The notes below the pieces were generated by a model. The model was not told the origin of the DNA, ran no database searches, and saw nothing but the letters and a program-made list of their open reading frames with translations. From positions 75,778,300 to 75,842,299 of the forward strand of contig CM049314.1 of the NCBI GenBank assembly GCA_026874595.1: a stretch of DNA of 64,000 bases, read 5' to 3'. Position 1 is the stretch's first letter. Every line of letters starts with the position of its first letter. The stretch is from Sipunculus nudus. Lineage: Eukaryota; Annelida; Sipuncula; Golfingiida; Sipunculidae. This document shows, in pieces, positions 8,403-55,980 of this stretch. The position numbers were made by a program, and so were the translations under genes.

Positions 8403-9932
8403 ACAAGTGACCCATGGGTCATGACGCTCAGCTGACTGGGAAGAGATTCGCAAAAGGAAATTTTATCATCTGAATGGTAGTATATACCCATTCAACTGAA
8501 GCATCAAACAGGTTAACCAACAGGCCAAGATTGTGTCTGTATTTATATATCTCAAAAACAGAGAAAAAATGCGTAAAAAATACAGGTGGCTCCAAGATTC
8601 TGCAGAAACTAATAATAAGACTTAAAGGTCAATATGCATGCAAAGAATCATGGTGATCTCTGCATTAGTTGCTCAGATACTTTAGCTTTTGTATCAAATT
8701 TTCCATTATTCTGAGGGATACTTCGGAGTCCTATAGCTTGAAGGATATGGGTAACGAAGACCTAATTCAGGTTTCCACAGACATATTTCATGGGCCTCCT
8801 TGCATGACACTAATGAAGATTCTAGGTCCAGTTGTTACAATTTGTGCCATGTAAACAGATGACAGCATCCTTAAAGGTTCCAAAAATAGAGAAAAAAATT
8901 CGAAAAATTGAATAAAATATAGGAGGCACCACCAGTCTGCAGAAACTGAAGAAACACTCCATAATCAATATCCATGCAAAGAATCATGGTGATCTCTGCA
9001 TTAGTTGTTCAGATACTTCATCTTTTGTATCAAAATGTTCATTATTCTTAGGGATACTTCGGAGTCCTATAGCTTGAAGGATATGGGAAACAGAGACCTA
9101 ATTTCAGGTTTCCACAGACACTTTTCATGGGCCTCCTTGTATGACAAGAATGAAGATTCTAGGTCGAGTTGTTAGGATTTGTACCCTGTTGACAGATAAC
9201 CACACCTTTAAAGGTCTCAAAAATTGATAAAAAAAATTCGTAAAGATTTGAAAAAATAGACGTGGCGCACCCAGTCTGCAGAAACTGATGGAATATCTCA
9301 TGATCAATATGTATGCCAAAAATCTTGACCATCAGTGTTGTATAATTGAGATACTGCAGTTTTTGTATCAAATTTTTCATTATTCTGGGAGTATTTTGGA
9401 GCCATACAGCTTAAAGGATATGGGTAACAGAGACCTAATTTCAGTTTTCCATGGAGACTTTTCATGGGTCTCCCTGTGTGTCAAGAAAGAAGATTCTGGG
9501 TCCGGTCTATACGATTTGTGCCCTGTTAACAGATGTTCATATCTTTAAAGGTCGCAAAAGTAGAGAAAAAAAATTGTAAAAAAAAAAAAACGAAAAAATG
9601 TAGGTGGTGCCACCAGTCTGCAGAAACTGATGAAACATTCCATGATCAATAATCATTAAAAAAATTATGGTGATCTCTGTATTAGTTGTTCAGATACTTC
9701 AGCTTTTGTATCACATTCTCCATTATTCGGAGCTATACTTTGGAGTGCCATAGCTCAAAGGATATGGGTAACAGAGACCTAATTTCAGGTTTCCATGGAG
9801 ACTTTTCATTGGTCTCCCTGTGTGTTAAGAATGAAGATTCTAGGTCCAGTCGTTACAATTTGTACCCTGTTGACAGATAACTACATCCTTAGAGATCTCA
9901 TAAATAGAGAAAAAAACTGTAAACATTTGAAA

Positions 9933-12900
9933 ACAAGGCCTACAGGCCTAATGCGAACCTGTGCAATTTGATTACACCAGGTTTAATGCTTCAATGCTGG
10001 ACCATTACTTTTCAAGAAAATGTGTAACATGTATATGAACATTGCAAGTACTGAACACTTAGAACAAAAAACAATTAAACAAGCATCACTGCTGCAATTC
10101 TGGCATGGGTGCACACAACACAGAAACTAGGATATGGGTAGTCAACAAGTGACTATGTGTATCCTCCAAAATCAGAGTGGGAAAGGTGAAGTGAGGCATG
10201 GATTGAGTGGCAAGGGGAAATAGAGTGAGGTGTGTTGCATAATAGCCTGGATGTCTGCAGCCGAAATATGTATGTAGGTTGCGCCACCTACCACAAAATC
10301 CAGAAAGCTGTCCAAGATGTATAAACATGCAAAATTTTAGGCAGATAAGTCAAACCACTACTGAGATATGAGTGATTTTAGCCCACGGCAGACAAACATA
10401 TGGACACTGTGCAAAAATGGTGGCAGGTGGCGCCACCAATTTTGTGTATGATTGAGAGATATGTGAGATCTATCCACATGCAAAATTTCAGGGGGATATG
10501 TCAAACCAGTCCTGATATATAAGCCTGAATGTGTGCAGCGCATACATGAATATAGGTGGCGCCACCTGCCAAAAAAATCCAGAAAGCTATCCAAGATGTA
10601 TAAACCTGCAGAATTTTAGGCTGATAAGTCAAACCGATACTGAGATATGGGTAATTTTAGCCCACGGCAGAAAAACAGACGGACGCTGTGCAAAAATGGT
10701 GGCAGGTGGCACCGCCAATTTTGTGTATGATTAAGAGTTATGTTAGATCTACACATGTGCAAAATTTCAGGGGGATACGTCAAACCAGTTCTGAGGTATC
10801 AGCCTGAATGTCTGCAGTGTATACATAAATGTAGGTGGCGCCACCTGCCACAAAATCCAGAAAGCTATCCAAGATGTATAAACCTGCAAAATTTTAGGCA
10901 GATATGTCAAACCACTGCCTATTATGAGTGATAATATCCCACGGCAAACAAACAGACGGACGCTGTGCATAAATTATTGCAAGTGGCGCCACCGCTTTTG
11001 CGTATGATAAAGAGCTATGTGAGATCTATAAACATGCAAAATTTTTGCCCAATCGGTCAAATGGTTTCTGAGATATGAGCTTGGATGTCTGCAGCATAAA
11101 TTTGAATGTAGGTGGCGCCACCTGTCATAAAACCTAGAAAGCTGTCCAGGATGTCAACACATGCAAAATTTCAGATGGATAAGTCCAACCAATGCAGAGC
11201 TATGAGTGTTTTTATCCTAAGGCAGATGAACAGATGAACGCTGTGCAAAAATGGTTGCAGGTGGCACCACCATTTTTAGTGTATCTTATAAAGCTTTCCA
11301 AGGGCTACATTTGTGCAAAATCTTTAGCCTTATCGGTTCCCGAGATATGTGGGTTTGTGTGTGGAAACATACGCACAAATGGACGCTAAGCAGAGAGGAA
11401 AGGTCAGAGGTCAATGAAAAATGAGGGCGCACCAGTTTACATGTGACTGATAATAATTCCGAATTTAAAAAAAAAATTCTGCTTAGTTGTTATAAAGAAG
11501 TTCTCTGGAAACCTATGCGGCGATGGCGGCAGCGTCAGCGTCTGACTGAAATCATAGTATCCGTAAAACTCTGTTTTGGCGGATACAATGATTGTAGCTG
11601 GCATGACCAGTCTTATATACAACGAAGAGATATATAAATATGCCCAATGTCAGACTGATATGTCAAACCCCTCCTGTGTAATAAGCAGGGACATACACTG
11701 TGCAAAAATTATTGTAGATGGCGCCACCAGCCTTGTACACTATAAAGCTACCCGATATGTATAAACATGCCAAATTTTAGGCTGATGTATCAAATTCCTC
11801 TGTAGAAATAAGAAGGCGCATACACTGCAAAAGTCAATGTTGGTGGCACCACCTGTCTTATAAGAATACAAACATGTCTTATGTGAATACCATCAAAGAC
11901 ACATAGACAGGTCAAAATATCAGTCCAATAAATCAAACTTCCCAAGAGTTTGATGCACTGGGCTGACAAGGCTTAGGTGAGTAAGGCAGTTGCCCCCGAG
12001 TGACCTGTGACAAATTGCTGCCTCAAGCTACTGCACTGAGTGAACTCCTCACCTGCACCTGGCTTGACTGAGTGAACTTTTGACCTGTACCTGGCTGCTC
12101 TGAGTGAACTCTTGACCTGTTGCATAATCTGACAAAGTTGGCAGTCTGCGAAAGCTATAAATAGATTTAGGCTGAACTTTGGTACCAAATATGATGCAGT
12201 GAGCCAAAGCTATAAATAGAATGCAGCTACTGCACTGAGGAAATCTTGACCTATACCTGGCTGCAGTTCTTCCAATCCTGGCACTGTGCCAAAATTATTT
12301 ATAGAGCTGACATCATCTTGCCTAATGGCCAACATCAAGGCACTGGCAATCTGCCAATGGTAAACCAAGTGCTGCCATCTATACACAAAAGTGGTCCCTA
12401 CTTGAAATAACTTTGAAATTTATTTTTCCAATACAAAATGCTTTTCAGCTGACTTTTTATAAAAAAGAAATCAGGAATATACGTAAAATTATTACGGATT
12501 CATACTGAATGCAAAATAAAATACAGATATATCTCACTGATGGCAAATTCTTGAATTAAGTTGAGTAGGGATACCAATAATTTATAATCAACGTTCAGTT
12601 GTCTTTACATAGCCACAGAGAGCTGAATATCCTTGATTGTAACATTGCCTGGTATGATGAATAACTTAAATCATAAATTTAAAATTTTAAAAGCTTTTAA
12701 AAAAATTTTTCTGTCAATATTAACTAAAGATAACCTGAAATCTAAATGTCTAGTGGCATGATGTAATAGATGCTGATAATATGCCAGGCTAGATGAAACA
12801 GCATAACACAGCTAACATATATGGTAAAATGACTCAATTCATTCTCCATAATTCAGCCAATAATCATTCATGTGGAACCATTAATGACAATTATTATAAG

Positions 12901-13864
12901 AATTATGGTAGGGATTATTCTTGTAAAATATTTAACAAACTGGCTCCAGTGACATCAGTCGAAAAACGTTTCGCAGGTTTATAACTCATAAAGGAAGATA
13001 CAGCAAACTGGCTAAGTTCAGCTTCCCGTAACCAAAATGCACTGAACCAAAACCATTTGAACAAACTTGAATTATCAACATCTGAGGATAATTAATGTGC
13101 AAGATTTAAGAATTTGGCCCAGTGGTTTTTGAGAAGAAGATATTTGTAGCCACTGAGCTAAAATGGGCTGTTATATATGGCATATGATCAAATTCAGCTT
13201 CCAATAACTCAGCCAAAAGTCACTGAAAAGAGACCATTTAAACAAACTTCAGAAAGCACTACCCTAGGATCATTTCTGTGCGATATTAAACATTTTGGCC
13301 ATATGGTTCCAGAGAAGAAGTTTTTTGTAGCCCTCAGTGTGATACAGGCAATGTCGACCCTGTACAAAAAAGGCCGATGCAGGTGGCGCCACCAATACCT
13401 CAATTTCAAATATGACCTATGTGACCAACATTGGCATAAAATTTGGTGATGAAAGCTCCAGCCGTTTCTGAGATTTAAATTTTAATACGCTTTTTTGCAC
13501 AGTTAACAAAGTTCAACCTGCTGAAACTCAGCCAAAAATCTCCAAACTGGAACCATTCGAAATACTTGAGAATAATTGTTCCAGGGATTATTTCTGTGAA
13601 AAATTTTTAACAAATTGGCTGGACAGTTTCGGAGAAGAAGATTTTTAAAGCTTTTCTTGCTTTTTCCCTATAAAATCTAAGAAAATGCAGTTAGAAAAAA
13701 AATAAACAAAATCCGATATAGTTTTATGGATGACTGATTATTTGCAAAAAAATTGGTGATGCTAGCTCCTGCCGTTTTTGAGATAGCTATGGTTAACGTA
13801 CAGACGACGGACGACGCACGACAGACGTCGCCGCACCATCACATAAGCTCACAGGTTCGCTAAA
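9933..13864 (-). mobile_element. HL2 Helitron-like element, copy A, both ends present
   Basis: Low end ACAAGGCCTACAGGCCT (stem AGGCCT/AGGCCT), then GCGAACCTGTG. High end CACAGGTTCGCTAAAA. The 11-bp subTIRs match exactly. The flanks are HL1 unit sequence: removing the copy restores TTTGAAAA joined to ATACAGGTGGC, the normal HL1 unit junction. The body has the 32-bp CTGCACTGAGTGAACTC repeats near 12,030, A-rich conserved blocks, GGTGGCGCCACC at about 13,382 and a GACGACGGACGACGC tract near the high end. An HL5 element is inserted near the low end. Confidence 0.9.
10126..11587 (-). mobile_element. HL5 Helitron-like element, both ends present, four 279-bp units
   Basis: Low end ACTAGGATATGG, hairpin GTAGTCAACAAGTGACTAT, then GTGTATCCTCCAAAA. 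High end TTTTGGCGGATACA. Minus-strand reading therefore ends in a hairpin, a 9-10 base spacer and CTAG followed by T. Four tandem units of about 279 bp have GGTGGCGCCACC (or GGTTGC..) near 10,277, 10,555, 10,834 and 11,111, with a second palindrome half a unit away. It is inserted in HL2 after CACAACACAGAA and before ATGATTGTAGCTGGC. The uninterrupted form of that site is visible near 56,194. Confidence 0.9.
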
Positions 13865-14907
13865 AATACAGGTGGCAACACCAGTCTGCAGGAACTGATG
13901 GAACACCTCTTGATGAATATATATGCCAAAAATCATGACCATCTGTGTTGTAGTTATTGAGATGTTGCAGTTTTTTTTTTTATCAAATTTTCCATTATTC
14001 TGGGGGGGGGGGGGGGTAATTGGGAGCCCCACAGCTCAAAGCATATGGGTATCAGAGACCTTATTTGAGTTTCCATGGAGACTTTTCATGGGTCTCCCTG
14101 TGTGTCAAGAATGAAGATTCTAGGTCCATTCTTTACGATTTGTGCCAAGTTAACAGATGTTCACATTTTTAAAGGTCTAAAAATAGAGAAAACAATTCGT
14201 AAAAAAATCGAAAAATACAGGTTGCGCCACCAGTCTGCAGAAACTGATGAAACATCTCATGATCAATATGTATGCCAAAAATTATGACCATCAGTGATGT
14301 AGTTAATGAGATATTGAAGTTTTTGTATGAATTTTTTTTACTATTCTGGGGGGTACTTTGGGGCCCCATAGCTCAAGGGATTTGGGTAACAGAGACCTAA
14401 TTTCTGGTTTCTATGGAGACTTTTCATAGGTCTCTCACTGTTTCAAGAATGAAGATTCTAGGTCCATTCTTTACGATTTGTGCCCTGTTAACAGATGTTC
14501 ACATTTTTAAAGGTCTCAAAATTAGAGAAAAAAAAAATCGTAAAAAAATGAAAAATACAGGTGGCGCCACCAGTCTGCAGGAACTGATGGAACATCTCAT
14601 GATCAATTTGTATGCCAAAAATCATGACCATCAGTGATGTAGTTAATAAGATATTGAAGTTTTTGTATGAAATTTTAGACCATTCTGGGAGGTACTTTTG
14701 GGCCCAATAGCTCAAAGGATATGGGTAACAGAGACCTAATTTCTGGTTTCCAAGGAGTTTTTCATCGACCTCTCAGAATGTCAAGTTACAAGATTCTGAG
14801 CCCTGCGGTTACGGTTTGTGCCAGGTTAACGGACAGACAGACAGACGGACGACGGACAAAGAGTGATCGCTAAAGCTCAGCATGACTGAAAGTCAGCTGA
14901 GCTAAAA

Positions 14908-17916: not shown

Positions 17917-17969
<53 letters not shown>

Positions 17970-20200: not shown

Positions 20201-23200
20201 ACAAGGCCTACAGGCCTAATGCGAACCTCTGCATTGGGAAATACACCAGGTATAATGCTTCAATGCTGGACCATGAATTCTCATGTATATGAACAATGCA
20301 GGTACTAAACATTTTGAATAAGAAACAATTACACAAATATCACTGCTGAAATTCTGGCATGGGTGCACACAACACAACCAGGGACTCATGGGTCTCAACG
20401 CTCAGTTGAATTTGTCTATAAGGATATTTTGAAAGAAATTTTTCAGAACGACAGTCCTGTGACCTTAAACAATGACCTTGTGACCAAAAAATCTTAGAAC
20501 TTAATATCCTTGAACTTGCAGCAATAGGACTATTGTAACAATCTTTTAAAAAGTGACCTTGACCAGATAACCAAAAATTCTACAGGTTTCCTCACTTTGG
20601 GCAAATAAGCCATTTGTGAACGTTGGAAAATTCAGGATGAAAAGTTTGATTTACAGTGCATGCACAATCTTTTTAAAGATGTGGCTTCTGTGACCTTCAA
20701 CTCAGATCGCTGAACCCTGAAAATCAAAATGAATTTACATATGTGGTTGGTCATTATTAAATCAAGTTTGAAGCCAGTCTGTCTTTCCAAAGCAGAAATA
20801 TCATCCATAAACTAATTTGTGAATGGATGGGCCCTGTGACCTTGACCATTGACCTATGACCCAAAAATCAAACAGAATCTTCCCCTAGTGGCAGGTTAGC
20901 AATATCTTGAAAATGGAAGGTTTGCGATGATAGTTTTGCTTCAAATGTATACACATTCCTTTTAAAGAAATGGGTCCTGTGACGTGGTCCTTTGACCGTT
21001 GGACCCCAAAATCAACATGGTTCTTACTTTAGGGGTAGGCCATTTATAAGTTAAGTTTAAAACCAATATATCAAACTTAACTGGAGTTATCATCTGGAAA
21101 CTAATTTGTGTGGATGGACGGATTGACAGACAGACAGACATACAAACAGACAGACTGACAGACAGGGTGATTAGTATAGGGCATCCACTTGTGATCAATA
21201 AACACACCTGGTTTAGGACACCAGATGTAATGACAGTTGAGAAACTGACATGACTGTTGTCATTTTATAGTAAATAAATAGAAAAATATTTGTTGAAATA
21301 GGAAAAAATATAGGTGGTGCCACAACGTTTCAGGAACTGACAAAACTAGTCAAGGTTAAAATTCAAGGCAATATTCATGACAAACCATGCATTAATTATC
21401 AAGATATTAGAGTTTTTGTTTCAAATTTTTTACTATTCTGGGGGTACTTTCAAGCCCCATAGCTCGAAGGAAAAAGGTTGCAGTGACCTTATTTCAGGTT
21501 TCCAAGGAAATTTTTAATTGACCTCCCTGGATGTTCATTTAGAAGTTTCTAGGACCAGCTGTTACGATTTGTGCCCTGTTAACGGAGGGACGAACATCCA
21601 GACGGATGACGGACAAAGCGCCATTCCTATACCTCAGTTGACTTACAGTTGGCTGAGCTAAAAATGATTTTAGCTGGCACCACCAGTATTGTATACAACA
21701 AAGCTACCACAGATATATACATATGCCCAAGTTCAGACTGATATATCAAACCCCTCCTGAGAAATAAGCAGGGACACACACTGTGCAAAAAATTATTGTA
21801 GGTGGCACCACCAGTCTTGTATACGACAAGTATACGATAATTAAAATACGATAGGTATAAATATGCCCAATTTCAGGATGAAATATCATCAATTATTGAT
21901 ATAATTAACTATGATTAACTATTGATATAATTCCTCAATAGAAATAAGCAGGCACAAAAGTCACACACTGTGCAAATGTCATTGTAGGTGGTGACACCTG
22001 TCTTGTGAACAAGAAACCCATCAAAGACCAATAGACAGGTCAGAATATTAGGCCAATACATCAAACTTACCTAAGTCTGATGCATGGGGCTGATCATGTT
22101 AGGTGAGAAAGGCAGTTGCCCCGAGTGAACTATGACAAATTTGCTAGCTCAGGCTACTACACTGAGTGGACTCATGACCTGCACCTGGCTAGACTGGGTG
22201 AACTTTTGACCTGTACCTGGCTGCACTGAGTGAACTCTTGACCTGTTGCCTAATCTCATACAGTTGGCAGTCTGCCAAAGCTATAAATAGATTGGCTCCA
22301 CATGCAGCCCTGAGGGGCATGACACCCATGAGATGATCACATGCTGCCGATGAGGTGACCACATGCTGCCCATGAGGTGTTCACATGTCACCCATGAGGG
22401 GATCACATGCCTTGTGCTTGGCTGCACTGACTGAACTCTTGACCTTTATCTGGCTGCACTGAATGAACTTTTGATCTATTGCCAAATCTGAAACAGTTGG
22501 CAGTTTCTTAACCTATTTAAATATACAGACATGATCTTGGCCTGTTGGCAAATCTGTTTACACATACTGAGAGACTTTGGCTAAAATGCTTTTTTTCAAG
22601 CTGAAATATTCATCAACTTTTTTTTTATTCAAAATATCTAGAATAATCAAAGATTCAGGTCTTTCATTGTTAAAGGTCCAATAATTCTACCAAAAATCAT
22701 TCAAGTAACCTTGAACAAAGGCCACCTAAGAATAATGTTTGTGCCATGGAACAGAAGTTATAATTGAAACAATAATTTTGTAGAAGAACAGTTTTGCAGA
22801 TCTCAGTTTGAGTTAGAAATAATAATGGCCATAAGACCAATTAAGTTTTTCTGATATGATTGAAAGAACCATGTCCTATGATAATTCTTTTGAAATATTG
22901 AACGATTCAACTTGACAGTTTTATCATAAACATTTTAAGCTGAAAGAGGCTAAAATTATGAGGTTTTTGCCCATAAAAAAACAGTTCAATATAGGTGGCA
23001 CATCAAATCTGCAACTTCAAATATGAGTCATGTGAACAACATTTGCACTGGCATAAAATTTGGTGATGATAACTCTGGCCGTTTTTGAGATTGTCATTTT
23101 AGTATGCTTTTTAGACAGATAACAAGGTTCAACTTCCTGTAATTCGGCCAAAAATCACCGAACTTAAACTTGAACCATTTGAACAAACTTGAGAGAAATG

Positions 23201-24627
23201 GGATAAAAGAATATTTTTGTGAAATATTGAACAAATTGGCTTGACTGTTTCAGAGGAGAAGATTTAAAAGGTTTTTTTTAGCTTTTTCTCTATAAAATCT
23301 AAGAAAATGTCAATTTTTTCAGATGGCTAATTTTTTGCATTAAATTTCATGATGCTAGCTCCACTCATTTTCGAAATAGTATGGGTTTACGATACCTGTG
23401 ATTGTAAACATTGCCTGGCATGAGAAATATCTAAAATCATAAATCTACATTTTTTAAAAAGTTTTTAAAAAACATTCTTGTCAATATTAACCAAAGATAA
23501 CCTGAAATCTTAATGTCGGGAGCATGATGTAACGGATGCTGATAAACTGGTTCCAGGCCAGATGTATCTGCTTCACACAACTAACATATATGGTATAATG
23601 ACTCAATTCAATCTTTATTATTCATTAAAAATTCATTCTTTGGAACCATAAAAGACAATTATTATCAGAATTATTCAGGGGATTATTCTTGTAAAATATT
23701 AAACAAATTGGCCTCAGTGGCTTCAATTAAGAAACGTTTTGCAGGTTTATAACTCATATGGGAAAATAAAGCAAAATGGCTAAGTTCAGCTTTCAATAAC
23801 TCAGCCAAAAATCACTGAACCGAAACCATTTGAACAAACTTAAATTATCAACATCTAAGGATAATTAATGTGTGAGATTTAAGAATTTGGCCCAGTGGTT
23901 TTTGAGAAGAAGATCTTTGTAGCCACTTAGCTAAAATGGGCTGTTATGGCATATGACTAAATTCAGCTTCCCTTAACTCAGCCAAAATTCACTGAAGTGA
24001 GACCATTTGAACAAACTTCAGAAAGCACTACCCTTGGATCATTTTTTTGCGATATTAAACAATTTGGCCAAATGATTTCAGAGAAGAAGTTTTTTTGTAG
24101 CTGTCAGTATGATACGGGCACTGATGACCCCCGTTCAAAAAAGGCCGATGCAGGTGGCGCCACCAATACCTCAATTTCAGACATGACTCATGTGACCAAC
24201 ATTGGCATAAAATTTGGTGATGACAGCTCCAGCCGTTTCTGAGATTGTAATTTTAGTATGCTTTTTTGGACAGATGACTAAGTTCAACTAGCTGTAACTC
24301 GGCCAAAAATCACCGAACTTAAACCATTCGAAAAAACTTGATAGAGATTGTTCCAGGGATCATTTTTGTGTAATATTGGACAATTTGGCTGAACAGTTTC
24401 GGAGAAGAAGATTTTTAAAGCTTTTTTTAGCCTTTTCTCTATAAACTCTACAAGAATGCAGTTAGGCAAAAAATAAGCAAAATCCGATGGAGTTTTTTAG
24501 ATGACTAATTTTTGCAGAAAATTTTTTATGCTAACTCTTGCCGTTTTCAAGATAGTATGGGTTAACGTACAGATGACGGACGCCGGACGACGCCACACCA
24601 TCCCATAAGCTCACAGGTTCGCTAAAA
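20201..24627 (-). mobile_element. HL2 Helitron-like element, copy B, both ends present
   Basis: Low end ACAAGGCCTACAGGCCT then GCGAACCTCTGCATT. High end GCTCACAGGTTCGCTAAAA. It contains an HL1-variant insertion at 20,377-21,663, a 22-bp minisatellite of CCCATGAGGTGATCACATG type at about 22,310-22,410, the 32-bp repeats near 22,150-22,250, and the conserved array region near 23,780-24,000. The flanks are HL1: CTTGACCTTTTGTTA joins TTTCTACTATTCTGGGG. This insertion is not next to the GGTGGC palindrome, unlike most. Confidence 0.85.
20377..21663 (-). mobile_element. HL1-variant element nested in HL2 copy B
   Basis: Low end ACCAGGGACTCATGGGTCTC then GCTCAGTTGA. High end CCTCAGTTGACTTACAGTT, GGCTGAGCTAAA. 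Its first 800 bp match the variant at 1,416-2,181, and its last 350 bp are one HL1 unit starting with GGTGGTGCCAC near 21,314. It sits between CACACAACACAA and ATGATTTTAGCTGGC, the same site in HL2 that HL5 used at 10,126. Confidence 0.75.
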
Positions 24628-25404
24628 AATTTCTACTATTCTGGGGGGTTTTCTGAGCCCCACAGCTTGGAAAATATTGGTGACGGAGACCTAATATAGG
24701 TTTCCAAGAAGACTTTTTATGGGCCTCCCTGCATACCTAGATAAAAGATTCTAGGTTCAGTCATTACCATTTGTGCCCTGTTAAAACATGACCACACCAA
24801 TAAAGATCTAAAAAAAAAAACAGAAAAAAAATCGTAAAAAATAAAAATATATAGGTGGCACCAGTCTGAAGAAACTAATGAAACATTAAATGACCAATAT
24901 CCTTCGAATGATTAATGGTGATCAATGCATTGGTCGTTCAGATACTTGAGCTTTTGTATCAAATTTTTCATTATTCTAGGGGTAACTTCTGAGCCCCATA
25001 GCATGCAGAATATCAGCGACAGAGAACTTTTTTCCTCAGGACACTTTTCATGTGCCTCCCTTTATGTCAAGATACAAGATTCTAGGTTGTCATTCCAGTT
25101 TGTGCCCTGTTAACAGATGACCACATCTTTAAAGGTATCAAAAACTGAAAGAAAATTGTTAAAAAAAAATAAACAAGGCCTAGAGGCCTAATGCGAACCT
25201 GTGCATTGGGAAATACAGCAGGTATAATGCTTCAATGCTGGACCATTACTTCTCATATAATGAACAATGCACGTACTAAATATTATGAATAAGAAACAAT
25301 TACACAAACATCACTGCTGAATTCTGGCATGGGTGCACACAACAAAAAAATGATTGTAACTGGCACCACCAGTCTTGTATACAACAAAGCTATCAGAGAT
25401 TTTT

Positions 25405-25705
25405 ATGTCAGAGACGAGATTGAAATCGAGGCGGATTTTAAATTTGCCTAGACGAGATTGCGATTGTGATCTCGCCTAGGCGAGATTACAACTGTGATCT
25501 CGCCAAGACAGATTTTAAACTCGCCTAGACGAGATCACAATCGCAATCTCGCCTAGGCGAGATTAAAATCCATCATGGAGCAGGCCAGGATTTTAATCTC
25601 GTCTAGGCAAGTTTAAAATCCATCTGGTATCATCCGGGCGAGTTTAAAATCTGCCTGATATCACTTAGGCGAGTTTTAAATCTGCCTAGGCGAGAATAAA
25701 ATAGT
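25405..25705. repeat. Cluster of inverted repeats built on CTCGCCTAGGCGAG
   Basis: The 14-bp perfect palindrome CTCGCCTAGGCGAG and near copies recur several times, alternating with ATTTTAAATC-type words. Sequence around 25,440-25,486 is inverted at about 25,519-25,562 with only a few mismatches, giving a hairpin arm of about 40 bp. The block is confined to this stretch. It is either the end of the inserted element that follows or a separate insertion. Confidence 0.75.
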
Positions 25706-25722
25706 GATCTAATCTAATTTTT

Positions 25723-26920
25723 TAATATATTTTGCATAGTAATTGACATTTTTCAATTAAAAATGTTTTGAGTCAGATTTTCAATATTTTAACACTGAAT
25801 GGTTATGTATAGTTGACAGGTAATATATTTATTAATATTTACAGAATATTATAATATTAATGTAATAATTAATATTATTTTTGGAAATGGATTTTTTTCA
25901 TTATACAGTTTTATTAATATAGTTATGTATAGTTCACAAGTAATATATCTATTAATATTTACAGATATTATATTATTAATGAAATAATTTACATTATTTT
26001 TTATATTTATATTTTTATTAATAAACTAAGCAATAAGAAACTTACATGGGTATGGTATACGGCATATTTAAGTGATATATGATGTGGGCTGCTGCTGATT
26101 ATTTACATAATAATTTTGTTTTCATTATTAATTTGAAGTGAAATTGGTATTAGTAATATTAATAATATAGTAATTTAAAAAGACAAAAGGAGACTGAATA
26201 TAACTCATTTATTATATAACAATATAATTCAATGCATGTTCACATCCATAAACGATCTATTAATCTATGAATCTAGAAATCATACCTTTTTTGATATGAT
26301 ATAATACTGTACAATGTGTAATATACTCTTTAAATAGTGAAGTAATATCTATCTGTCTATCTAGCTATAATCTAGCTATCTAATCTAGCTATCTAGCTAT
26401 CGATCTATTGAACTATGATTGGTTCAATATGCAAGTGGATGACTTTTTTCTCCTAGATTTGCTCTTCATAAATTTATCTCATAAATATGCTTCAGTATAC
26501 CTCTTGTTACTCCCTAATTGCCATATATTAAATACAATTACATTTTTGTGTGTGTAAAAATTATTGGTGATTTTTACAACTCCAAGGTTGTTAAGAAAAC
26601 TGGGAAAAAAATAAAGATTAATTAATTTTCAGCAAATAATTGGTATGATATGAATGCTGAAGACCACATGAATCACATCAAAGGTGCAAGTAATAATCAA
26701 TGAATACCAAAAATAAAAATCAAAATTAATGTTAATTATTACATTAATAATTATTACATTACTGTACAAATTAATGTTTATTATTACAATAATATTATAA
26801 TATTCTGTAAATATTAATAAATATAATACCTGTGAAGTATATATAACCAATCAGTGTTAAAATATTGAAAATCTGACTGAAAACATATTTCATATGTCAA
26901 TTACAGTGCATAATATATAA
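25723..26920. mobile_element. Putative non-autonomous DNA transposon with long inverted repeats
   Basis: The left arm (TAATATATTTTGCATAGTAATTGACAT, AGTCAGATTTTCAATATTTT, then ACACTGAATGGTTATGTATAG) is repeated inverted at about 26,740-26,920. The arms run roughly 150-180 bp with moderate divergence. Part of the left arm is also repeated directly at about 25,918-25,990. The interior is AT-rich with no recognised protein. No clear target duplication was found, so the exact ends and superfamily are open. Confidence 0.6.
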
Positions 26921-30558: not shown

Positions 30559-31180
30559 AACTGACTATAAGTCTTCTGAGCTATAGTCGTGGTCCATTGT
30601 CTGTCCGACGGTTACATTGGCACGTTATGAAACCGTTAGACATACGAATCCAAAATTTAGAATACTGTTAGATGTCCCAAAGATCTCCTACCAAACTGAA
30701 AATTGGGTCACTGCGACTTTGTTCCTTTGAAAAATTAAGGAAAAACCTCATCTGTTTTCCTTAATATTTACCAGAAGTTTTCTCCCATATATTTCATATA
30801 CACATGCTAGAAATTAAATCCTTTCAGTGAAGTTATGGGCCTGATAATAATGCACTTTGTAAAAAATCTGGAAAAATATTTACTCACTTAACATGAAGAT
30901 TTTTGAAGCTAGAGAGTTTTTTCCAAAGTGTATATATTTTTTCATTAAGATTCAATTGTTTAGCCAAAATTAGATCATAATTTTGTAAATTATTTTAGCA
31001 TAAAGTATAGTTATTAGCATAAAAATAAAATCAGTACCCTAAATTTTGCCCATCTTTGACCATTGCATTTTTTTTCTGTGAGTACTATTGAATTAATTTT
31101 CACAGCATGTAAAAATAAGTATTTAATTAATTTAAAATCTGAAATTTGAAAATAAAAGCTTGAAAATTAGGCTAGTTATG
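30559..31180 (+). mobile_element. HL1c element fragment in the opposite orientation
   Basis: The sequence ACTGACTATAAGTCTTCTGAGC followed by ATAGTCGTGGTCCATTGTC is the reverse complement of the HL1c high end at about 44,100-44,155. The match continues through ACGTTATGAAACCGTTAGAC and TTTTGCCCATCTTTGACCATT to about 31,080. This is the only Helitron-like copy I found on the opposite strand. The hairpin end is not seen. Confidence 0.75.
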
Positions 31181-40031: not shown

Positions 40032-40733
40032 GGGTCTGTCTAAAACGCGGAGAATCCGCGGAGAGATGGAGAATTCGCGGAGAATTTGCGGAGAGTTTTT
40101 ATTTGCAATGATACTCTTAAATACACATTAAAATCACTTAATATCTGCAACTATATTACTCTTAACATATTCGTTCACTGTTACATGACCAAAATAATTT
40201 AAAATCTGTACATTCACGTAACATTCAGCTCTCTCTGTTGTTTGGGCAAGCAAGTTCTTCTCCGATAAGATTTTATTTGTGCCACGCCAGTGACAACGAA
40301 TAGCATCAGGAGACTGTAGGCCATTTGTCATTGCAAATGCAGTTGATTTTTGTTTCATTCCAGCAATTAAACAAATTGAACATTTTAAACAGAGTTTGAT
40401 GCAAAAGCACTTGGTCTCTTAAATTTAATTGTTTCAGTGCAGGGATGAATTTGTTTACACCATTTACTATCATATGATAAAACAATTTTCTCCTAGAATA
40501 CCAAAGCCTAAATATAATGCAACTGTAACCATTGGGACTGAATGTTAATGTGGCTTAGGAGAGTGTTCGAAGACAAGGTTGGGTTTGATAAAAAAAGAGT
40601 AATAAGTGGTTTCATTTAAAATGTGCATTTGTCTTTAAAATAAATAAAACGATCAATGAAATGGTTTTGTGAAGATTGTACAAATAATTTCTTTACTATT
40701 GCTGTATGTATGTGTACATTGTGCTATATTTTT

Positions 40734-40769
<36 letters not shown>

Positions 40770-41466
40770 GTACTTTGTATCGTTATGATCAGAAAGAAGT
40801 TTGGTGTATTTTGTACAGACTATAAAAAATATAATTCTTAACTGTAATCACAATATATATATATTTACTATTTTTTCTTTTATTTTATATAATCCTTATG
40901 CCAAGTTGATTCATTAGCTTAAAGGTAAACTCATTGTTTGTGTAAAAAGTCAAATGTTTGTGTTTCATTTTTATTTGTGCATGTAAATTGGGTCCATTAA
41001 TTCACTCTAAATGGTGATAGTGTTTTTTTATCTATCAATAACTGTAGGTAAAAGTATATGATTAATTTCTTATATTATATATTTCGTTCACCACCTGTAA
41101 ATTTGATACACCTGCATGGTTTTGTTATGGTTTGCACAATAAACTGTTGAAAATTAATTTAAGAGTGTTGCGGTTTCGTGTTAAGATCTGTCAGTGTCGG
41201 CTGGTGACTCAGACGGGTATTACATTTTACGTAACACATTCACCGGGGGGTGAGTCCACATTGTTAAGCATAAAATGCTCAGTTATATACAGATTTTTCA
41301 ATTATTTCGGTAATTTAACAGTGCGCAAAAATGTTAAGTGTAATATAGTTGGAGATTTTAAGTGATTTAAAGTGTATTTAAAAGTATCATTGCATATAAA
41401 AACTCTCCGCAAGTTCTCCGCGAATTCTCCATCTCTCCGCGAATTCTCCGCGTTTTAGACAGACCC
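40032..41466. mobile_element. Mutator-like non-autonomous transposon, about 200-bp TIRs, 9-bp duplication
   Basis: Left end GGGTCTGTCTAAAACGCGG and right end CGCGTTTTAGACAGACCC are inverted. The similarity continues for about 200 bp at each side (through AGAGTTTTTAT, CAATGATACT, ACTATATTAC, CTTAACAT), ending near 40,235 and 41,265. GGGTATTCA is present directly outside both ends (40,023-40,031 and 41,467-41,475). A 9-bp duplication with long inverted repeats is typical of the Mutator superfamily. The outer TIR has three to four copies of GGAGAATTCGCGGAGA-like words. The 1.0-kb interior encodes nothing recognisable and has an ATT microsatellite at about 40,740-40,770. Confidence 0.85.
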
Positions 41467-42137: not shown

Positions 42138-42318
42138 AGAAGTGACCCATGGGTCATGATGCTCAGCTGACTGGAAGAGATTCGAGAAAGGAAATTTTAT
42201 CATCTGAATGGTAGTATGTACCCGTTCAACTGAAGCATCAAACAGATTAACCAACAGGCAAAGATTGTGTCTATATTTATATATCTCAAAAATTGAGAAA
42301 AAAAAGTTTAAGGAAAAA

Positions 42319-44166
42319 AAGGGACCCACGGGTCACGGCGTTCAGCTGAAGTTTGAAATTTTTGCAAATGCAAAATATGCAAAATATTCTATTGTAATGT
42401 TTTTCATTTATATAAGCATATGAGAAGTTAAATGGAAAGGGACCCTACTATTTGGTTAGTAGTAGATATAGTAAATATATGATTGCTAACTAATATTCTG
42501 ATAAGACTGTCATGAAGAAAAACAGTAAAGTTTTGAGATACTGTGATGCATATGAAAAATTTACAGATGGACAGGCAAGTGGACAGAATGGACTGATACC
42601 TTTATTTCACTTTCAAGGGAATAATGCATTTAAGTTTATATATAAGCCTATTTTTTTTTAGCATACCCACTTTTTCAATTAATAGTTTTTATCTGAATAA
42701 TTTTTTTTCATTTACAAGTTTTATAAATTTGTAAAAAAAACTGAAAATATAAGTTAAAATATTATAATTCTAAGTTACAATCAGTATATATCCAGAGTGT
42801 AGCTCATATTGGGTCATATCATACATACACATTTGTTTTATTATTTTTAAATCACAAATGTTTAAACTGAATTTAAAAGAAAATAATGCCACAACATTCA
42901 TTGAATCACTATTAAAAAGTTTTGCACACTGGGGTTTTCAGTTCATGCTTTATTTTATTCACCGAAATAAAAGATTCAGTAAATCTGATAAAATAAAAAC
43001 ATCTTTTCAAATAAAGTATACTAACTGTTGGTTGAATTAGGGATAAACAATATCACTGTGCTTATTACTATTTCAGCTATAATTGATTACTGGAATTAAT
43101 AGTCAATTTCACACCTGGTGAAGTTTTTACTCTTGTGAAGTAAGGAATTACTTATCTGATGAACATCCACACTTTCATACCAATACACCACTTTGTGGAC
43201 ACAGATAAATGTGTTCTTTAACCATTGTAACCCTGGTGGTACAATACAAAATCTAAAATGTAGCATAGCCAAGAATAAAATAAAATAAAATACAGAAAAT
43301 TATAACATTCATCTAGTTAATGCACCATCGGGGGGAGGGGGAGGAGTGCAGGGCAGAGGGGAAGCCTGCTAGTAGTGGCCAAGCTGAGCCAAGGCAAGCT
43401 ACCTGGGGTGGGCTACATCTAGCTGGGCTAGATGTAAACAACACTATACATTGTGTATGAAAACTTAAATAAAAGCTACTCTGTTCAATCAATTCCTTTG
43501 AAATTTCAGATTTTAAAAGGTTAAATCCTTATGTATGTATGCTAAGAAAATTAAATCAACAGTGCTTACAGGAAAAAAATGTGCCATTGCCAAAGTTGGA
43601 CAAAATTTAAGGTATTGATTTTTTATTCATGCTAATATCTTGAAAAATTTGCAAAATTCAGATGTAATTTTACGGTAAACAATTGAATCTTGATTAAATA
43701 ATTTATATTCCTGAGAAAAAAGTCTTCAGCGCCAGAAATTCTCAATTTAGGTGAGAAAATATATTTCCTGATTTTTTAAAATTGAATTATTTTTGGGCCC
43801 ATTACTTCAAAATAATACCCAATACTGACCTATTTTTAGTAGGTTTATAGAAAATGTATGGAAGAATATAAATATTAAATTTGATCAAAAACAGATAAGT
43901 GGTTTTGATATTAGACAGCCTTGAAGTATAACAATGGCTCTTTTTATGGAAAACGGAGGTTTTTCCTGCATATCTCGAAGGAATGAAGTCCTAATGACCC
44001 AATTTTTTGTATGGTATAGGTTTTGGGGACATCTAAAGGTATGCAAAATTTTGGATTCGTACGTCTTACGGTTTCAAAACGTGCCCTGTTAACGGACGGA
44101 CGGCCGGACGGACGGACAATGGACCACGACTATAGCTCAGATGACTTAAAGTCAGCTGAGCTAAAA
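42319..44166 (-). mobile_element. HL1c element, both ends present, nested in HL1
   Basis: Low end AAGGGACCCACGGGTC then GGCGTTCAGCTGAAG. High end CGGACGGACGGCCGGACGGACGG, AGCTCAGATGACTTAAAGTC, AGCTGAGCTAAAA. The first 470 bp match 16,115-16,590 and the last 600 bp match the inverted fragment at 30,559. It stands at AAGGAAAAA before ACAGGTGGCTCTACC, the HL1 unit junction. The middle (about 42,800-43,500) has no counterpart in the window. Confidence 0.8.
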
Positions 44167-44752
44167 ACAGGTGGCTCTACCAGTCTGCAGAAACTAAAAA
44201 AAACACCTAATGGTAAATATCCATGCAAAGAATCATGGTGATCTCTGCAGTAGTTATTCAGATACTTAAGCTTTTGGATCAAATTTTCCTTTATTCTGAG
44301 GGATACTTCGGAGTCCTATAGCTTGATGGATATGGGAAACAGAGACCTAATTTTAGGTTTCTTCAGACATTTTTTATGGGCCTCCTATCATGACAAGAAT
44401 GAAGATTCTAGGTCCAGTTATTACGATTTGTACCCTGTTGACAAATAACCACATCTTTAAATGTCTCAAAAATAGAGAAAACCCAGTCTGCAGAAAATGA
44501 TGGAACACCTCATGATCAATATGTATTCCAAAAATCATGACCATCACTGATGTAGTTAATGAGCTATTGAAGTTTTTGTACGAATTTTTTTTGTACTATC
44601 CTCGGGGGGGGGGGGGTACTTTCGGGCCCCATAGCTCAAAGGATATGGGTAGGTCCAACGGTGTCAAAACGTGCCCTGTTAACGGACGTCGCCGGCCGGC
44701 CGGCCAATGGATCACGACTATAGCTCAGATGACTTATAGTCAGCTGAGCTAA
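44166..44752. repeat. Tandem duplication of about 587 bp including an HL1c end
   Basis: AAACAGGTGGCTCTACCAG starts at both about 44,166 and 44,753, each time directly after the HL1c terminal hairpin and AGCTGAGCTAA. The duplicated segment therefore carries a second copy of the terminal sequence at 44,651-44,752, preceded by CGCCGGCCGGCCGGCC. This looks like unequal exchange between neighbouring units. Confidence 0.7.
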
Positions 44753-45712
44753 AAACAGGTGGCTCTACCAGTCTGCAGAAACTAATAAAAACACCTAATG
44801 GTAAATATCCATGCAAAGAATCATGGTGATCTCTGCATTAGTTGTTCAGATACTTAAGCTTTTGGATCAAATTTTCCTTTATTCTGAGTGATACTTCGGT
44901 GTCCTATAGCTTGAAGGATATGGGAAACAGAGACCTAATTTAAGGTTTCTTCAGACATTTTTTAGGGGCCTCCTAGCATGACAAGAATGAAGATTCTAGG
45001 TCCAGTTTTTACGATTTGTACCCTGTTGACAGATAACCACATCTTTAAATGTCTTAAAAATATTGAGAAAACCGGGTCTGCAGAAACTGATGGAACACCT
45101 CATGATCAATATGTATGCCAAAAATCATGACTATCAGTGTTGTAGTTATTCAGATACTGCAAGTTTTGTATCAAATTTTTCATTATTCTGGGTCTTATTT
45201 TGGAGCCATACAGCTTAAAGTAAATGTGTAACAGAGACCTAATTTCAGGTTTCCATGTAGACTTTTCATGGGTCTCCCTGTGTGTCGGAAAAGAAGATTC
45301 TAGGTCCAGTTGTTATGATTTTTGCCCTGTTAGCAGATGTTCATAAAAATAGAGATAAAAAAATTGTAAAAATTAAAAAAAAATACAGGTGGCGCAACCA
45401 GTCTGCAGAAACTGATAAAACACTCCATTATCAATATCCATGCAAACAATTATGGTGATCTCTGGATCAGTTGTTCAGATACTTCAGCTTTTGCATAAAA
45501 TTTTCCATTATTCTGAGCTGTACTTCGGAGTGCCATAGCTCAAAGGATATGGGTAACAGAGACTTAATATCAGATTTTTCAATGGAGACTTTTCATGGGT
45601 CTCCCTAGAATGAAGATTCTAGGTCCAGCCGTTACGACTTGTACCCTGTTGACAGATAACTACATCCCTAAGGTCTCAAAAATAGAGATAAAAAAAATGT
45701 AAAAATTTGAAA

Positions 45713-48480
45713 ACAAGGCCTACAGGCCTAATGCGAACCTGTGCATATGGATATACACCAGATATATCGCTTCAATGCTGAACCACTACTTTTCATATAT
45801 ATGAACAATGCAAGTACTAAACATTTTGAACAAGAAACAATACACTAACATCACTGCTGAAATTCTGGCATGGGTGCACACAACACAAAAATTATTGTTG
45901 GTGGCACCACCAGTCATGTATACGACAAAGCTATTTGACATGTATAAATATGCCCAATGTCAGGCTTATATATCAAATTCTTCCGTAGAATTAAGCAGGC
46001 ACATACACTTGGCAACACCTGTCTTGTGAATTAGAAAGCCATTAAAGACACCTAGACAGGTCAGAATATCAGGCCAATACATCGAACTTACCTTGAGTCT
46101 GATGCACGGAGCTGATCAGGCTTAGGTGAGAAAGGCTGTGGCCCCGAGTGTACTGTGACAAATAACTTGCTCAGGCTACTGCGCTAAGTGAACTCTTGAC
46201 CTGCACCTGGCTAGACTGAGTGAACTTTTGACCTGTACCTGGCTGCACTGAATAAACATGAGGTGATCACATGATACTCATGAGGTAATCACATGCTACC
46301 CATGAAATGATCACATGCTGCCCATGAGGTGATCACATGCCTTGTGCTTGGCTGCACTGATTGAACTCTTGACCTAAATCTGGCTGCACTGAATGAACTC
46401 TTGATCTGTTGCCAAATCTGAAACAGTTGGCAGTTTCTCAACCTATTCAAGAAACATACACAATCTTGACCGGTAATGTAACTCTGCTAAAATTTATCCA
46501 ACACAAACCATTTGAACAAACTTGAGAAGGCTCGCCTCTGGGATCATTTCTGTAAAAATATTGAACAATTTGGCTGGACTCTTTACAAGAAGAAGAAATT
46601 TTTTTTCAGCTTTTCCCCTGTAAAATCTAAGTTAATGCAGATAGCAAAAATAAGCGGAATCCATCAACATTTGATATGTGACTGATAATTGCAAAAAATT
46701 TGGTGATGGTAGCTCCTGCTATTTCTGAGAAATTATGAATAGTGTACAGATGATATGTAATATCATAAATCTACACTTTAAAAAAGCTTTAAAAAAACAT
46801 TCTTGTCAATATTTTCCATAGATATTCTGAAATCTAAATGTCTAGAGGCATGATGTAATGGATGCTGATAAACTGGTGCTAGGCTAGATGTATCTGCTTC
46901 ACACAGCTAACATATATGGTAAAATGACTCAATTCAATCTTTATAATTCAGCCAAAATTCATTTTTTGGAACCATAAAAGACAATTATTATTAGAGTGAT
47001 TCAGAGAATTATTCTTGCAAAATATTAAATAAACTGGCCTCAGTATTATCAGTCGAAAAACGTTTTGTAGGTTTATAACTCATATGGGAAAATACAGCAA
47101 AATGGCAAAGTTCAGCTTCCCATAACTCAGCCAAAAATCATTGAACCAAAACCATTAGAACGAACTTGAATTATCAACTTCTAAGGATAATTAATGTATG
47201 AGATTTAAGAATTTGGCCCAGTGGTTTTTGAGAAGAAGATTTTTGTAGCCACTCAGCTAACATGGGCTGTTATGGCATATGACTAAATTCAGCTTCCCAT
47301 AACTTAGCCAAAGTCACTGAACTGAGACCATTCGAACAAACTTGAATTATCAATATCTAAGGATAATTAATGTGTGAGATTTAAGAATTTGGCCCAGTGG
47401 TTTTTGAGAAGAAGATTTTTGTAGCCACTCAGCTAACATGGGCTGTTATGGCATATGACTAAATTCAGCTTCCCATAACTTAGCCAAAGTCACTGAACTG
47501 AGACCATTCGAACAAACTTGAATTATCAATATCTAAGGATAATTAATGTGTGAGATTTAAGAATTTGGCCCAGTGGTTTTTGAGAAGAAGATTTTTGTAG
47601 CCACTTAGCTTACATGGGCTGTTATGGCATATGACTAAATTTAGCTTCCCATAACTCAGCCTAAAGTCACTAAACTGAGAGCATTTGAACAAACTTGAAT
47701 TATCTGCACCTAAGGATAATTAATGTGTGAGATTAAGAATTTGGCCCAGTGGTTTATGAGAAGAAGATTTTTGTAGCCACTTGGAAAATGGGCTGTTATG
47801 GCATATGACTAAATTCAGCTTCTCATAACTTAGCCAAAAGTCACTGAACTGAGACCATTTGAACAAACTTCAGAAAGCACTACCCTAGGATCATATCTGT
47901 GCGATATTAAACAATTTGGCCATTTCGTTTCAGAGAAGAAGTTATTTGTAGACGTCAGTATGATACGGGCACTGATGACCCCCGTACAAAAAAGGCCGAT
48001 GCAGGTGGCGCCACCAATACCTCAATTTCAGATATGACTCATGTGACCAACATTGGCATAAAATTTGGTGATGATAGCTCAGGCCATTTCTGAGATTGTA
48101 ATTTTAGTATGCTTTTTTGGAAAGATGACTAAGTTCAACTTCCTGTAACTCGGCAAAAAATCACCGAACTTAAAGCATTCGAACAAACTTGAGAGAGATT
48201 GTTCCAGGAATCATTTCTGTAAAATACTGAACAATTTGGCTGAACAGATTCGGAGAAGAAGATTTTTTGAAGGTTTTTTATCTTTTTCCCTTTAAAATCT
48301 AAGAAAATGCAGTTAGCCAAAAAATAAGCAAAATCCGATAGAGTTTTTTAGATGACTAATTTTATGCACAAGTTTTCGTGATGCTTATTCTTGCCGTTTT
48401 CAAGATAGTATGGGTAAACGTACAGACGACGGACGACGGACTACGCCACACCATCGCATAAGCTCACAGGTTCGCTAAAA
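45713..48480 (-). mobile_element. HL2 Helitron-like element, copy D, both ends present
   Basis: Low end ACAAGGCCTACAGGCCT then GCGAACCTGTG. High end CACAGGTTCGCTAAAA, with matching 11-bp subTIRs. Flanks are HL1: AAAAATTTGAAA and AAACTGGTGGCAGAACCAG. It carries the 22-bp CATGAGGTGATCACATG minisatellite near 46,258-46,345 and four units of a 177-bp tandem array. Compared with copies A and B, the early part of the body is deleted. Confidence 0.9.
47111..47820. repeat. 177-bp tandem array inside HL2 copy D, four units
   Basis: Units start with TTCAGCTTCCCATAACT at 47,111, 47,288, 47,464, 47,641 and 47,814. The second and third units are almost identical over their full length, while the outer units differ at many positions, so expansion of this array looks recent. 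Copy F has three units (59,914, 60,092, 60,269, 60,445), and copies A and G have one. Confidence 0.9.
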
Positions 48481-49474
48481 AAACTGGTGGCAGAACCAGT
48501 CTGCAGAAACAATTGGAACACCTCTTGATCAATATGTATGCCAAAAAATCATGACCATCAGTTTGTAAATATTGAGATGTTGCAGCTTGTTTTTATCAAA
48601 TTTTCCATTATTCTGGGGGGGTAATTGGGAGCCCCACAGTTCAAAGGATATTGGTAACAGAGACCTTATTTCAGGTTTTCATGGCGACTTTTCATAGTTC
48701 TCTCACTGTGTCAAGAATGAAGAATCTAGGTCCAGTCTTTACGATTTCTGCCCTGTTAACAGATGTTGACATTTTTTAGGTCTCAAAAATAGAGAAAATA
48801 ATTCGTAAAAAAAAAAATAAAAAAATTCAGGTGGCGCCACCAGTCTACAGGATCTGATGAAACATCTCATGATTAATATGTATGCCAAAAATCATGACCA
48901 TCAGTGATGCAGTTAATGAGATTTTGAAGTTTTTGTATGAAATTGTTTTTTACTATTCTGGGGGGTACTATCGGGCCCCATAGCTCAAAGGATATGGGTA
49001 ACAGAGACCGAATTTCTAGTTTCCACGGAGACTTTTCATAGGTCTCTCAGTGTGTCAAGAATTAAGATTCTAGGTCCAGTCTTTACGATTTGTGCCCTGT
49101 TAACAGATATTGACATTTTTAAAGGTCTCAAAAATAGAGAAAAAAATTCGTAAAAAATCGAAAAATACAGGTGGCGCGACCAGTTCTCTGGTACTGATGA
49201 AACATCTCATGATCAATATGTATGACAAAAATCATGACCTTCAGTGATGTAGATAATGAGATATTGACTTTTTTTAATGATTTTTTTTACTTTTCTGGGG
49301 GGTATTTTGAGGCTACATAGCTCGAAGGATATGGGTATTTTCATGGACCTTTCAGAATGCCAAGTTACAAGATGCTAGGTCCAGTGGTTACGATTTGTGC
49401 CTGGTTAACGGACGGACAGACGGACAAAGAGTGATTGCTATAGCTCAGACGACTTTCAGTCAGCTGAGCTAAAA

Positions 49475-52558: not shown

Positions 52559-52570
52559 TCTTATGTTTCT

Positions 52571-53506: not shown

Positions 53507-53808
53507 ACAAGGCCTACAGGCCTAATGCGAACCTGTGCAGTGGCATATAATACAACAGGTATTATGCTTCAATGCTGGATCATTACTTTTTCAAAGACGT
53601 GTAATATGTTCATGAGCAATGTAAATACTAAACATTTGAACAAAACCAATAACACAAAAATCACTACTGAAATACTGGCGTGGGTGCCCACAACACAAAA
53701 CTGATTGTAGTTTGCGCCACCTGTCTTGTATACAACAAAGCTATCCTAGATGTACACATATGCCCAATTTCAGGCTGAGAAATAAACAGGGACATAAACT
53801 GTGCAAAA

Positions 53809-54707: not shown

Positions 54708-55980
54708 ATTATTGTAGGTGGCACCACCAGTCTTATATACGACAAAAAAATTCGATATGTGTATATGAGCACAATTTCAGGCTGATATATAAAATGCCTA
54801 CTACGAAAAATAAACAGGTACATACACTGGGCAAAAGTCATTGTAGGGGGCTACACCAGTCTTGTTAACGAGAAAGCCATCAAAGATGCATGGACAGGGC
54901 AAAACATCAAGCCAATACACCAAATTTCTCTTGAGTCAGGTGCACTGGGCTAACCAGGCATAGGTAAGGAAGGCAGTTGCTGGCTCCAGCTACTGCACTG
55001 AGTGAACTCCTGACCTGCAACTGGCTGCACTGAGTGAACTCCTGACCTGTATCTGGGTTCACTGAGTGAACTATTGACCTGTTGCATAATCTGACACAGT
55101 TGGCAGTCTCCAAAGGTATAAATAGATCCAGACTATATCCATTAGAATAATAAAAAATGCAGTCATTTCATTGTTAATAATTGAATAATTTAATAATTGT
55201 CCAATAATTCTGCCAAAAATCATTTCAGTGAACTTATACAAAGGCCTCCTAAGAATCATTTTTGGGCAATGTCACAGAAGTTGAAACCACAGGTTTACAG
55301 AAGAGGACTATTCCAGCCCAGTTTGAAATAGACTAACTTATGGCCCCAAGACCAACTCAAGTCATATATGACTCTACCAAAACTCAATGAACACAATCTA
55401 TTCATATACACTTGAAAGGAACTTACCCGAGGATAATTCTTGTGAAAAATTAAATTACTCAGCTTGACAATTTCATCATAAAACATTTTTAATTTGAAAA
55501 TGGATTAAATTATGAGGTTTTTGACCGTAAAAAAAATTGTAGTTGGCGCTAAAAACGGCATTTCAAGTATGAGTCATGTGACCAACATTTGCATAAAACC
55601 TGGTGATGCTAGCACCTGTAGTTTCTGAAATTGTTATGTTAATATGCTTATTGCCGAAATGACTAAGTTCAAATTCCTGTATCTTGGCCAAAATTCATCA
55701 CACCAAAACCATTTGAACAAACTTAGGAGAGCTTGTCTCTTGGATCATTTCTGGATTATTTCTATGAAACAGTTTGGTTGAATGATTTCAGAGGAGGAGA
55801 TTTTGAAAGTTTTTTTTATCTTTTCAACTTAAATATAAGATAATGCAGGTGGCGCTACCAATCCCACAAAATTTTATATGTGACAGAGTTCTGCATATTA
55901 TTTAGAGATCTTATTTCCCGCCATTCCTGAGAAAAGATGGTAAAATGTACTGACCCTCGTATAAAAAGGTTGATGCAGGT

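Follow-up and report, generated by a model that had tools for sequence, protein, structure and literature searches.

Nested Helentron-type elements of Sipunculus nudus insert preferentially beside a short palindrome of host arrays

A nest of Helentron-type elements with central tandem arrays

The window analyzed in this work is a stretch of 64,000 nucleotides from the sipunculan Sipunculus nudus (GenBank assembly GCA_026874595.1, contig CM049314.1; C9:75778300-75842299), set within a genome of 1.43 Gb. Element ends read by eye reveal that it contains a nest of non-autonomous rolling-circle elements, among them those that we label HL1, HL2 and HL5. By eye, HL1 is bounded by ACAAGGCCTACAGGCCTAATGCGAACC at one end and GCTCACAGGTTCGCTAA at the other, HL2 by ACAAGGGACCCATGGGTC...GCTCAGCTGA and AGTCAGCTGAGCTAA, and HL5 by ACTAGGATATGGGTAGTC and TTTTGGCGGATAC. 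HL1 (GCGAACCTGTG / CACAGGTTCGC) and HL2 (GCTCAGCTGA(C) / (G)TCAGCTGAGC) each carry subterminal inverted repeats, approximately 11 bp long and likewise identified by eye. Terminal palindromes (AGGCCTACAGGCCT and GACCCATGGGTC) lie a few bases from the element end, and in HL1 and HL2 a palindrome is found a few bases from the left end. The elements harbor central arrays with units of approximately 337, 177 and 127 bp, and stretches of GACGGAC-type microsatellite precede their right end. The central arrays bear the palindrome GGTGGCGCCACC or variants of it, and the window contains 50 matches to this motif (at most two mismatches), against 0.43 expected from shuffled sequence.

Passages of a study of non-autonomous Helentrons (HINEs) describe a layout with a subterminal inverted repeat and a GTC-type microsatellite at the 5' end, and a subterminal inverted repeat and a palindrome at the 3' end (PMC7492417). 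Following this layout, the window elements point in the direction opposite to that assumed in a preliminary description of the locus, so that the A-run at their insertion sites becomes the T-run target of Helentrons, and the terminal palindrome becomes the 3' palindrome of the element. Read in this orientation, their termini are 5' TTAG and 3' CTTGT or CTAGT. Adenine occupies positions 2 and 3 of the flank after the insert in 97-99% of 140 3' flanks sampled from the genome (see below), as expected for insertion at TT (AA); this AA/TT target does not fit a canonical Helitron. On these sequence features, we assign the window elements to the HINEs with central tandem arrays.

Seven nested insertions lie beside a host palindrome

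The preliminary description had proposed that seven insertions in the window lie in an A-run, 3-8 bases before the palindrome. Both flanks of all seven were read, and the proposal was borne out. All seven are true nested HINE insertions after which the host array resumes in register, with host A's first and then a palindrome, perfect or variant, at approximately 5-11 nt from the insert end; when counted from the end of the A-run, the spacing is approximately 2-8 nt, near the claimed value.

An HL2-type HINE at 8403-14905 (ends by eye) forms the outside of a three-level nest, in which HL5 lies within HL1 and HL1 within HL2. This outer HINE is located in a 26-bp minisatellite and lies on the minus strand by the published HINE layout (plus in the preliminary description); all elements listed below are likewise on the minus strand. 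Its array contains an HL1 copy at 9933-13863 (both junctions read), 7 nt past which lies the host palindrome GGTGGCAACACC (13871-13882, by motif search). At the start of the array of this HL1 copy stands an HL5 element (10126 to about 11588; junctions read), followed by the degenerate host palindrome GCTGGCATGACC (11597-11608, read after the insert), which carries four mismatches. The other HL5 insert, from 53809 to about 54708, occupies an HL1 array (both sides read) and is followed by GGTGGCACCACC (54717-54728, by motif search). The last base of both HL5 inserts is ambiguous, and their distance to the palindrome is about 10 nt. Two more HL1 copies reside in HL2 arrays, at 25173-29007 and 45713-48478 (both sides read in each), with GGTGGCGCCACC 8 nt past the former (29016-29027, by motif search) and the variant GGTGGCAGAACC 7 nt past the latter (48486-48497, read after the insert). 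An HL2 copy at 42317-44164, itself in an HL2 array (both sides read), precedes the variant GGTGGCTCTACC by 5 nt (44170-44181, by motif search). Finally, an HL1 copy at 20201-24625 (ends read), inserted in an HL2 array away from the palindrome, hosts an HL2-like element at 20377-21661 (both sides read), 11 nt past which lies the variant GCTGGCACCACC (21673-21684, by motif search). The seven sites also confirm that HL1, HL2 and HL5 elements all use the palindrome, in HL1 and HL2 hosts.

The window contains at least 16 left ends, seven of which are at the palindrome. They include HL1 ends at 3959, 9933, 20201, 25173, 45713, 53507 and 58332, HL2-type ends at 8403, 16115, 20377, 30181, 34255 and 42317, and ACTAG-type ends at 10126, 53809 and 32612. 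The earlier count of at least four insertions elsewhere used an incomplete denominator. Of the inserts away from the palindrome, those at 20201 and 16115 likewise sit in array-like repeats, at other positions of the unit (by eye).

Insertion beside the palindrome exceeds the abundance of host sites

Elements that merely seek A-runs might strike common arrays containing an A-run and a palindrome by chance, and the genome offers some 103,000 sites with AAAA, up to 17 nt and GGTGGC on one strand alone. We assessed this explanation with three corrections. Among 5896 exact HL1 3' ends, GGTGGC is found within 18 nt in 257, and the control hexamer TTCTGG in 35. The supply of sites in which AAAA and up to 17 nt precede the motif is 103,123 for GGTGGC and 57,669 for TTCTGG, yielding an odds ratio of 4.1 against supply, where supply was taken from reverse-strand counts and one count per motif there is deduced.

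We then scored an unselected sample of 140 3' flanks, comprising the first 100 of the 5896 HL1 ends (C1, 0.16-15.7 Mb) and 40 HL2 flanks, which represent 40 of the 62 places at least 6 kb apart among 100 listed matches (all plus-strand copies; C1, 0.1-1.7 Mb). The palindrome (at most three mismatches, within 32 nt) accompanies 15 of the 140 insertions (HL1 12/100, HL2 3/40), compared with 31 among 1364 A-run ends situated farther out in those flanks, a 4.7-fold enrichment (P = 6.7e-6) that ranges from 2.7- to 7.2-fold under alternative cut-offs and with AAA words as the null. Within HL2 arrays, 10 of 17 same-orientation insertions fall in the 18 nt before the palindrome, where 15% (A-runs, P = 5e-5) or 22% (AAA words, P = 0.001) would be expected; this test counts L029, which matches an element tail, among the array insertions, and places L101, which is in register yet degenerate, under other.

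Together, these results support a preference for the palindrome side of approximately 3- to 7-fold after correction for motif supply, position in the array unit and local A-runs. The preliminary description had held that the idea would fall if enrichment vanished once host repeats were taken into account; the enrichment persists through all three corrections, and chance hits on abundant hosts are thus an improbable explanation, even with palindrome sites in the minority (15/140).

The equivalent HL2 count (1848 of 39,632 3' ends with GGTGGC within 18 nt) was not used as evidence of preference because a single junction string dominates the 100 matches listed for this count. This string, AAATTGAAAAAATACAGGTGGC, recurs after HL2 3' ends in many of those matches, as if one composite had been amplified. 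Among 20 HL1 elements with both flanks available, the rejoined flanks align across the junction in eight, restoring a window repeat; L055 does so solely in an AT repeat, and the length of the A-tract hides 1-2 bases in this check for target-site duplication. The eight include two of the four palindrome-site copies (L024 and L032), while in the other two (L012 and L040) the rejoined flanks do not span the junction and the chosen left end may belong to another copy.

Palindrome-site insertions of HL1 look independent

The same HL2/HL1 junction occurs at many loci with 82-92% identity, and the HL2 junction string is heavily repeated among the matches listed. Both observations would be expected if one or a few composite nests had been copied many times, rendering the junctions non-independent. 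We examined 20 selected HL1 palindrome-site copies together with three from the window. By motif, the hosts of this set are HL2-type arrays in 15 of 23 cases and other arrays in eight, spanning several array families. Across all pairs, median identity is 0.86 for the insert and 0.75 for the host, and in HL2-type hosts the two identities show no correlation (Spearman ρ of 0.02 with 78 pairs and of 0.05 with 105). Given this variety of host families and the uncoupled divergence of insert and host, the HL1 insertions at palindromes look like independent events on the compared sequences. Amplification of a single nested unit was therefore set aside for HL1, and we consider composite copying highly improbable as a source of these junctions.

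Inserts share the orientation of their hosts and of distant neighbors

In the 140-flank sample, 48 insertions have window-like Helentron DNA at the insertion point, and in 46 of them the insert shares the orientation of its host (HL1 33/35, HL2 13/13), where the supply of A-runs predicts 55% (P below 1e-9). Strand agreement extends beyond individual hosts. In the first 15.6 Mb of C1, HL2 copies have the same strand as HL1 copies at a distance of 10-100 kb in 31 of 35 cases (shift-test P = 0.0005), the HL2 copies in these distance tests coming from the 100 listed matches in which AAATTGAAAAAATACAGGTGGC recurs. Over the same region, HL1 agrees with HL2 and HL5 in 59 of 76 cases (P = 0.0065); for HL5 against HL1 and HL2 the figure is 44 of 64 (P = 0.004), and for a tRNA-type B-box control word it is 9 of 22. 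Pairwise agreement between HL1 and HL2 decays to about one half by 0.8 Mb (mixed-strand lists only). Strand domains therefore likely exist; they are not absolute and are strongest for HL1 and HL2. This shared strand of HL1, HL2 and, more weakly, HL5 over tens of kilobases, seen in the window as well as on C1, is possibly a larger finding than the palindrome itself.

Domains of this kind could result from nests that grow one way, each insert copying the orientation of its host, with no part played by the direction of replication forks. The host-orientation bias (46/48) is what such growth predicts, and the window itself is a nest of tens of kilobases. Against it, HL1 copies with neither window repeats nor element-end motifs in the right flank still match the strand of HL2 at 10-100 kb in 18 of 20 cases, though that of HL5 in only 14 of 24. 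We regard one-way growth as a serious contender, somewhat short of even odds.

Other features of the window

Several further features were noted in the window. An HL2-like end at 30561-31164 runs opposite to the remaining elements and matches 43484-44155 in inverted orientation. An element of about 1.4 kb at 40032-41466 has inverted ends of about 183 bp that are 90% alike. The HL1 copy at 25173-29007 contains a GCCTAGACGAGAT block rich in palindromes (25400-25700) and an inverted pair with 86% identity (25715-25881 and 26768-26927), which together look like another mobile element. The region at 44165-45071 comprises a duplicated unit of 588 bp, with copies 95% alike, that includes an HL2 3' end and the start of an array, and at 49473 a ACTAGAATATCAGC left end comes immediately after an HL2 3' end.

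Discussion

The results presented above confirm insertion beside the palindrome as an observation. The explanation that we favor, at a probability of roughly 0.45, is that T-run insertion is promoted after a short GC-rich palindrome because single-stranded array units would mimic the 3' end of the element. The elements insert where the transposed strand reads TT (AA in the preliminary description), and the T-runs that they favor follow such a palindrome, chiefly the GGTGGCRCCACC found in arrays belonging to several Helentron families. The Rep (HUH) nuclease would recognize the 3' terminus of the element, which in HL1 has a small hairpin (AGGCCTGTAGGCCT) with TGT and a T-run after it. The nuclease may mistake single-stranded array units composed of palindrome, a few bases and T-run for that terminus, transferring the strand there. 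Since the match to the terminus is directional, the newcomer would adopt the orientation of its host, and a Rep that accepts terminus-like array units would account together for where the elements land, how close to the palindrome they do so and which way they point. A replication fork may supply the single strand, which would add a regional strand bias.

Genome-wide, an HL1 3' end stands directly beside an HL1 left end in 25 of 5896 cases (within about 31 nt), against approximately 0.3-0.6 expected by an arithmetic estimate, and nine of these pairs are exact head-to-tail fusions (GCTAA-CAAGG). Adjacent ends are compatible with terminus mimicry, their order of arrival being undecidable; the nine fused copies are as expected for circles or concatemers. 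The palindrome may also be the point at which arrays start and grow, as the A-run that precedes it seems, in HL1 copies read by eye, to mark the beginning of the array.

Three oligonucleotides with array palindromes have folding energies of -2.2 to -3.6 kcal/mol, roughly as favorable as those of the terminal hairpins of HL1 and HL5 (-4.0 and -3.5 kcal/mol). Several results weigh against 3'-end mimicry and its possible link to forks. The HL2 terminal oligonucleotide reaches only -1.3 kcal/mol, and a second hairpin contributes to the -3.6 kcal/mol of one array oligonucleotide. Palindrome sites account for only 15 of the 140 sampled insertions, about one in ten. With palindrome sites and flanks containing left-end-like words set aside, 116 flanks remain, and in these, hairpins of at least five pairs are not enriched (6% beside the insertion, 6-11% further along). 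No Rep gene with these ends turned up, although no family search was made and window reading frames of at least 120 amino acids were merely listed. At 30-100 kb, the strand of HL5 matches that of HL1 and HL2 in only 37 of 60 cases (P = 0.09). On other chromosomes, where 8 kb were taken 30 kb from 20 HL1 anchors, 10 of 13 informative cases agree (one-sided P = 0.046). A stretch counted as informative from 150 bp of Helentron DNA, the one rule of this test that was not fixed beforehand; of the seven uninformative cases, six lack any match to a Helentron and one, which falls short of 150 bp, is discordant.

The hairpin result led us to reject a general rule by which palindromes or structure govern insertion. 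Since hairpins are no commoner at other insertions, the element needs TT and not a hairpin, with the palindrome raising the odds. The preliminary description, which held that the palindrome or the structure it makes guides targeting, is thus partly supported: the preference for the site stands after three corrections, and the data point only weakly to structure, a sequence-specific or A-tract effect being also possible. Its further proposal that the elements use each other's arrays as landing sites is true of a minority (15/140), and in 39 of 100 HL1 insertions the 450 bp of right flank contain no window repeat and no motif of an element end. An effect of sequence could arise where an A-tract abuts GC-rich DNA, at a melting boundary or nucleosome edge, or through the word GGTGGC, for instance if bound by a host protein, folding being irrelevant in either case. 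Several of the sites used are imperfect palindromes, which agrees with such an effect, as does the absence of hairpin enrichment at the 116 other insertions; the occurrence of the palindrome in several otherwise different arrays argues against it, though indirectly. We view this alternative as a distinct possibility, at about one chance in three.

Target finding and the source of single strands are standing questions for Helitrons and Helentrons, and a terminus-like landing site combined with a strong same-orientation rule provides a signature that can be counted in any Helentron-rich genome. In its broadest form, Helentrons would insert into the single-stranded DNA of forks, fork direction would set regional orientation, and array palindromes would act as decoy 3' termini, capturing newly arriving copies and building one-way nests. 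Fork coupling is plausible as a hypothesis, and this combined scheme is rather unlikely. Were insertion at forks true, the strand of thousands of copies would preserve, like a fossil map, the polarity of forks in the germline, and, if strand domains follow forks, the elements would document the direction of replication at no cost in species lacking replication maps.

Comparison with known systems

Nested long terminal repeat retrotransposons of plants reportedly favor palindromes as targets and nest in specific regions, to judge by the title of a 2019 paper; they differ from the elements described here in using a retrotransposon integrase and in generating target duplications. In the literature searched, which was screened by title and abstract opening and leaves most subscription journals outside, we found no report that Helitrons or Helentrons prefer targets next to palindromes or insert in an orientation set by forks.

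The closest relatives are Helentrons and HINEs, such as Cg_HINE of Crassostrea gigas and DINE-1, which, according to passages of two studies, share subterminal inverted repeats, a terminal palindrome, a GTC-type microsatellite, a satellite-like array and insertion at TT or T-rich sites (PMC7492417, PMC4067079). HINEs with central arrays, their insertion at TT and their insertion into repeats are thus already known from these sources, whose passages on HINEs do not state a palindrome-adjacent preference or a same-orientation rule. The HINEs of C. gigas are described in both orientations genome-wide, as is also true here (PMC7492417), and composites formed through self-insertion are likewise described in part of an earlier report (PMC5148889).

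Canonical Helitrons, such as Helraiser and those of maize, share the rolling-circle logic and, as sections on Helraiser indicate, a 3' hairpin as terminator (PMC4778049), and adjacent head-to-tail copies are also described (PMC2267711); they differ in inserting between A and T and in their TC...CTRR ends, in contrast to the AA/TT target seen here. The same sections on Helraiser name lagging-strand DNA as a possible single-stranded substrate (PMC4778049). A bacterial precedent for the fork as a source of single strands is provided by the IS200/IS605 family (IS608), in which, by the account given in passages of a review, the target is single-stranded and orientation follows the direction of replication (PMC5371812). 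These bacterial elements use another transposase and excise; their likeness to the S. nudus elements would be one of mode of action, not of kinship.

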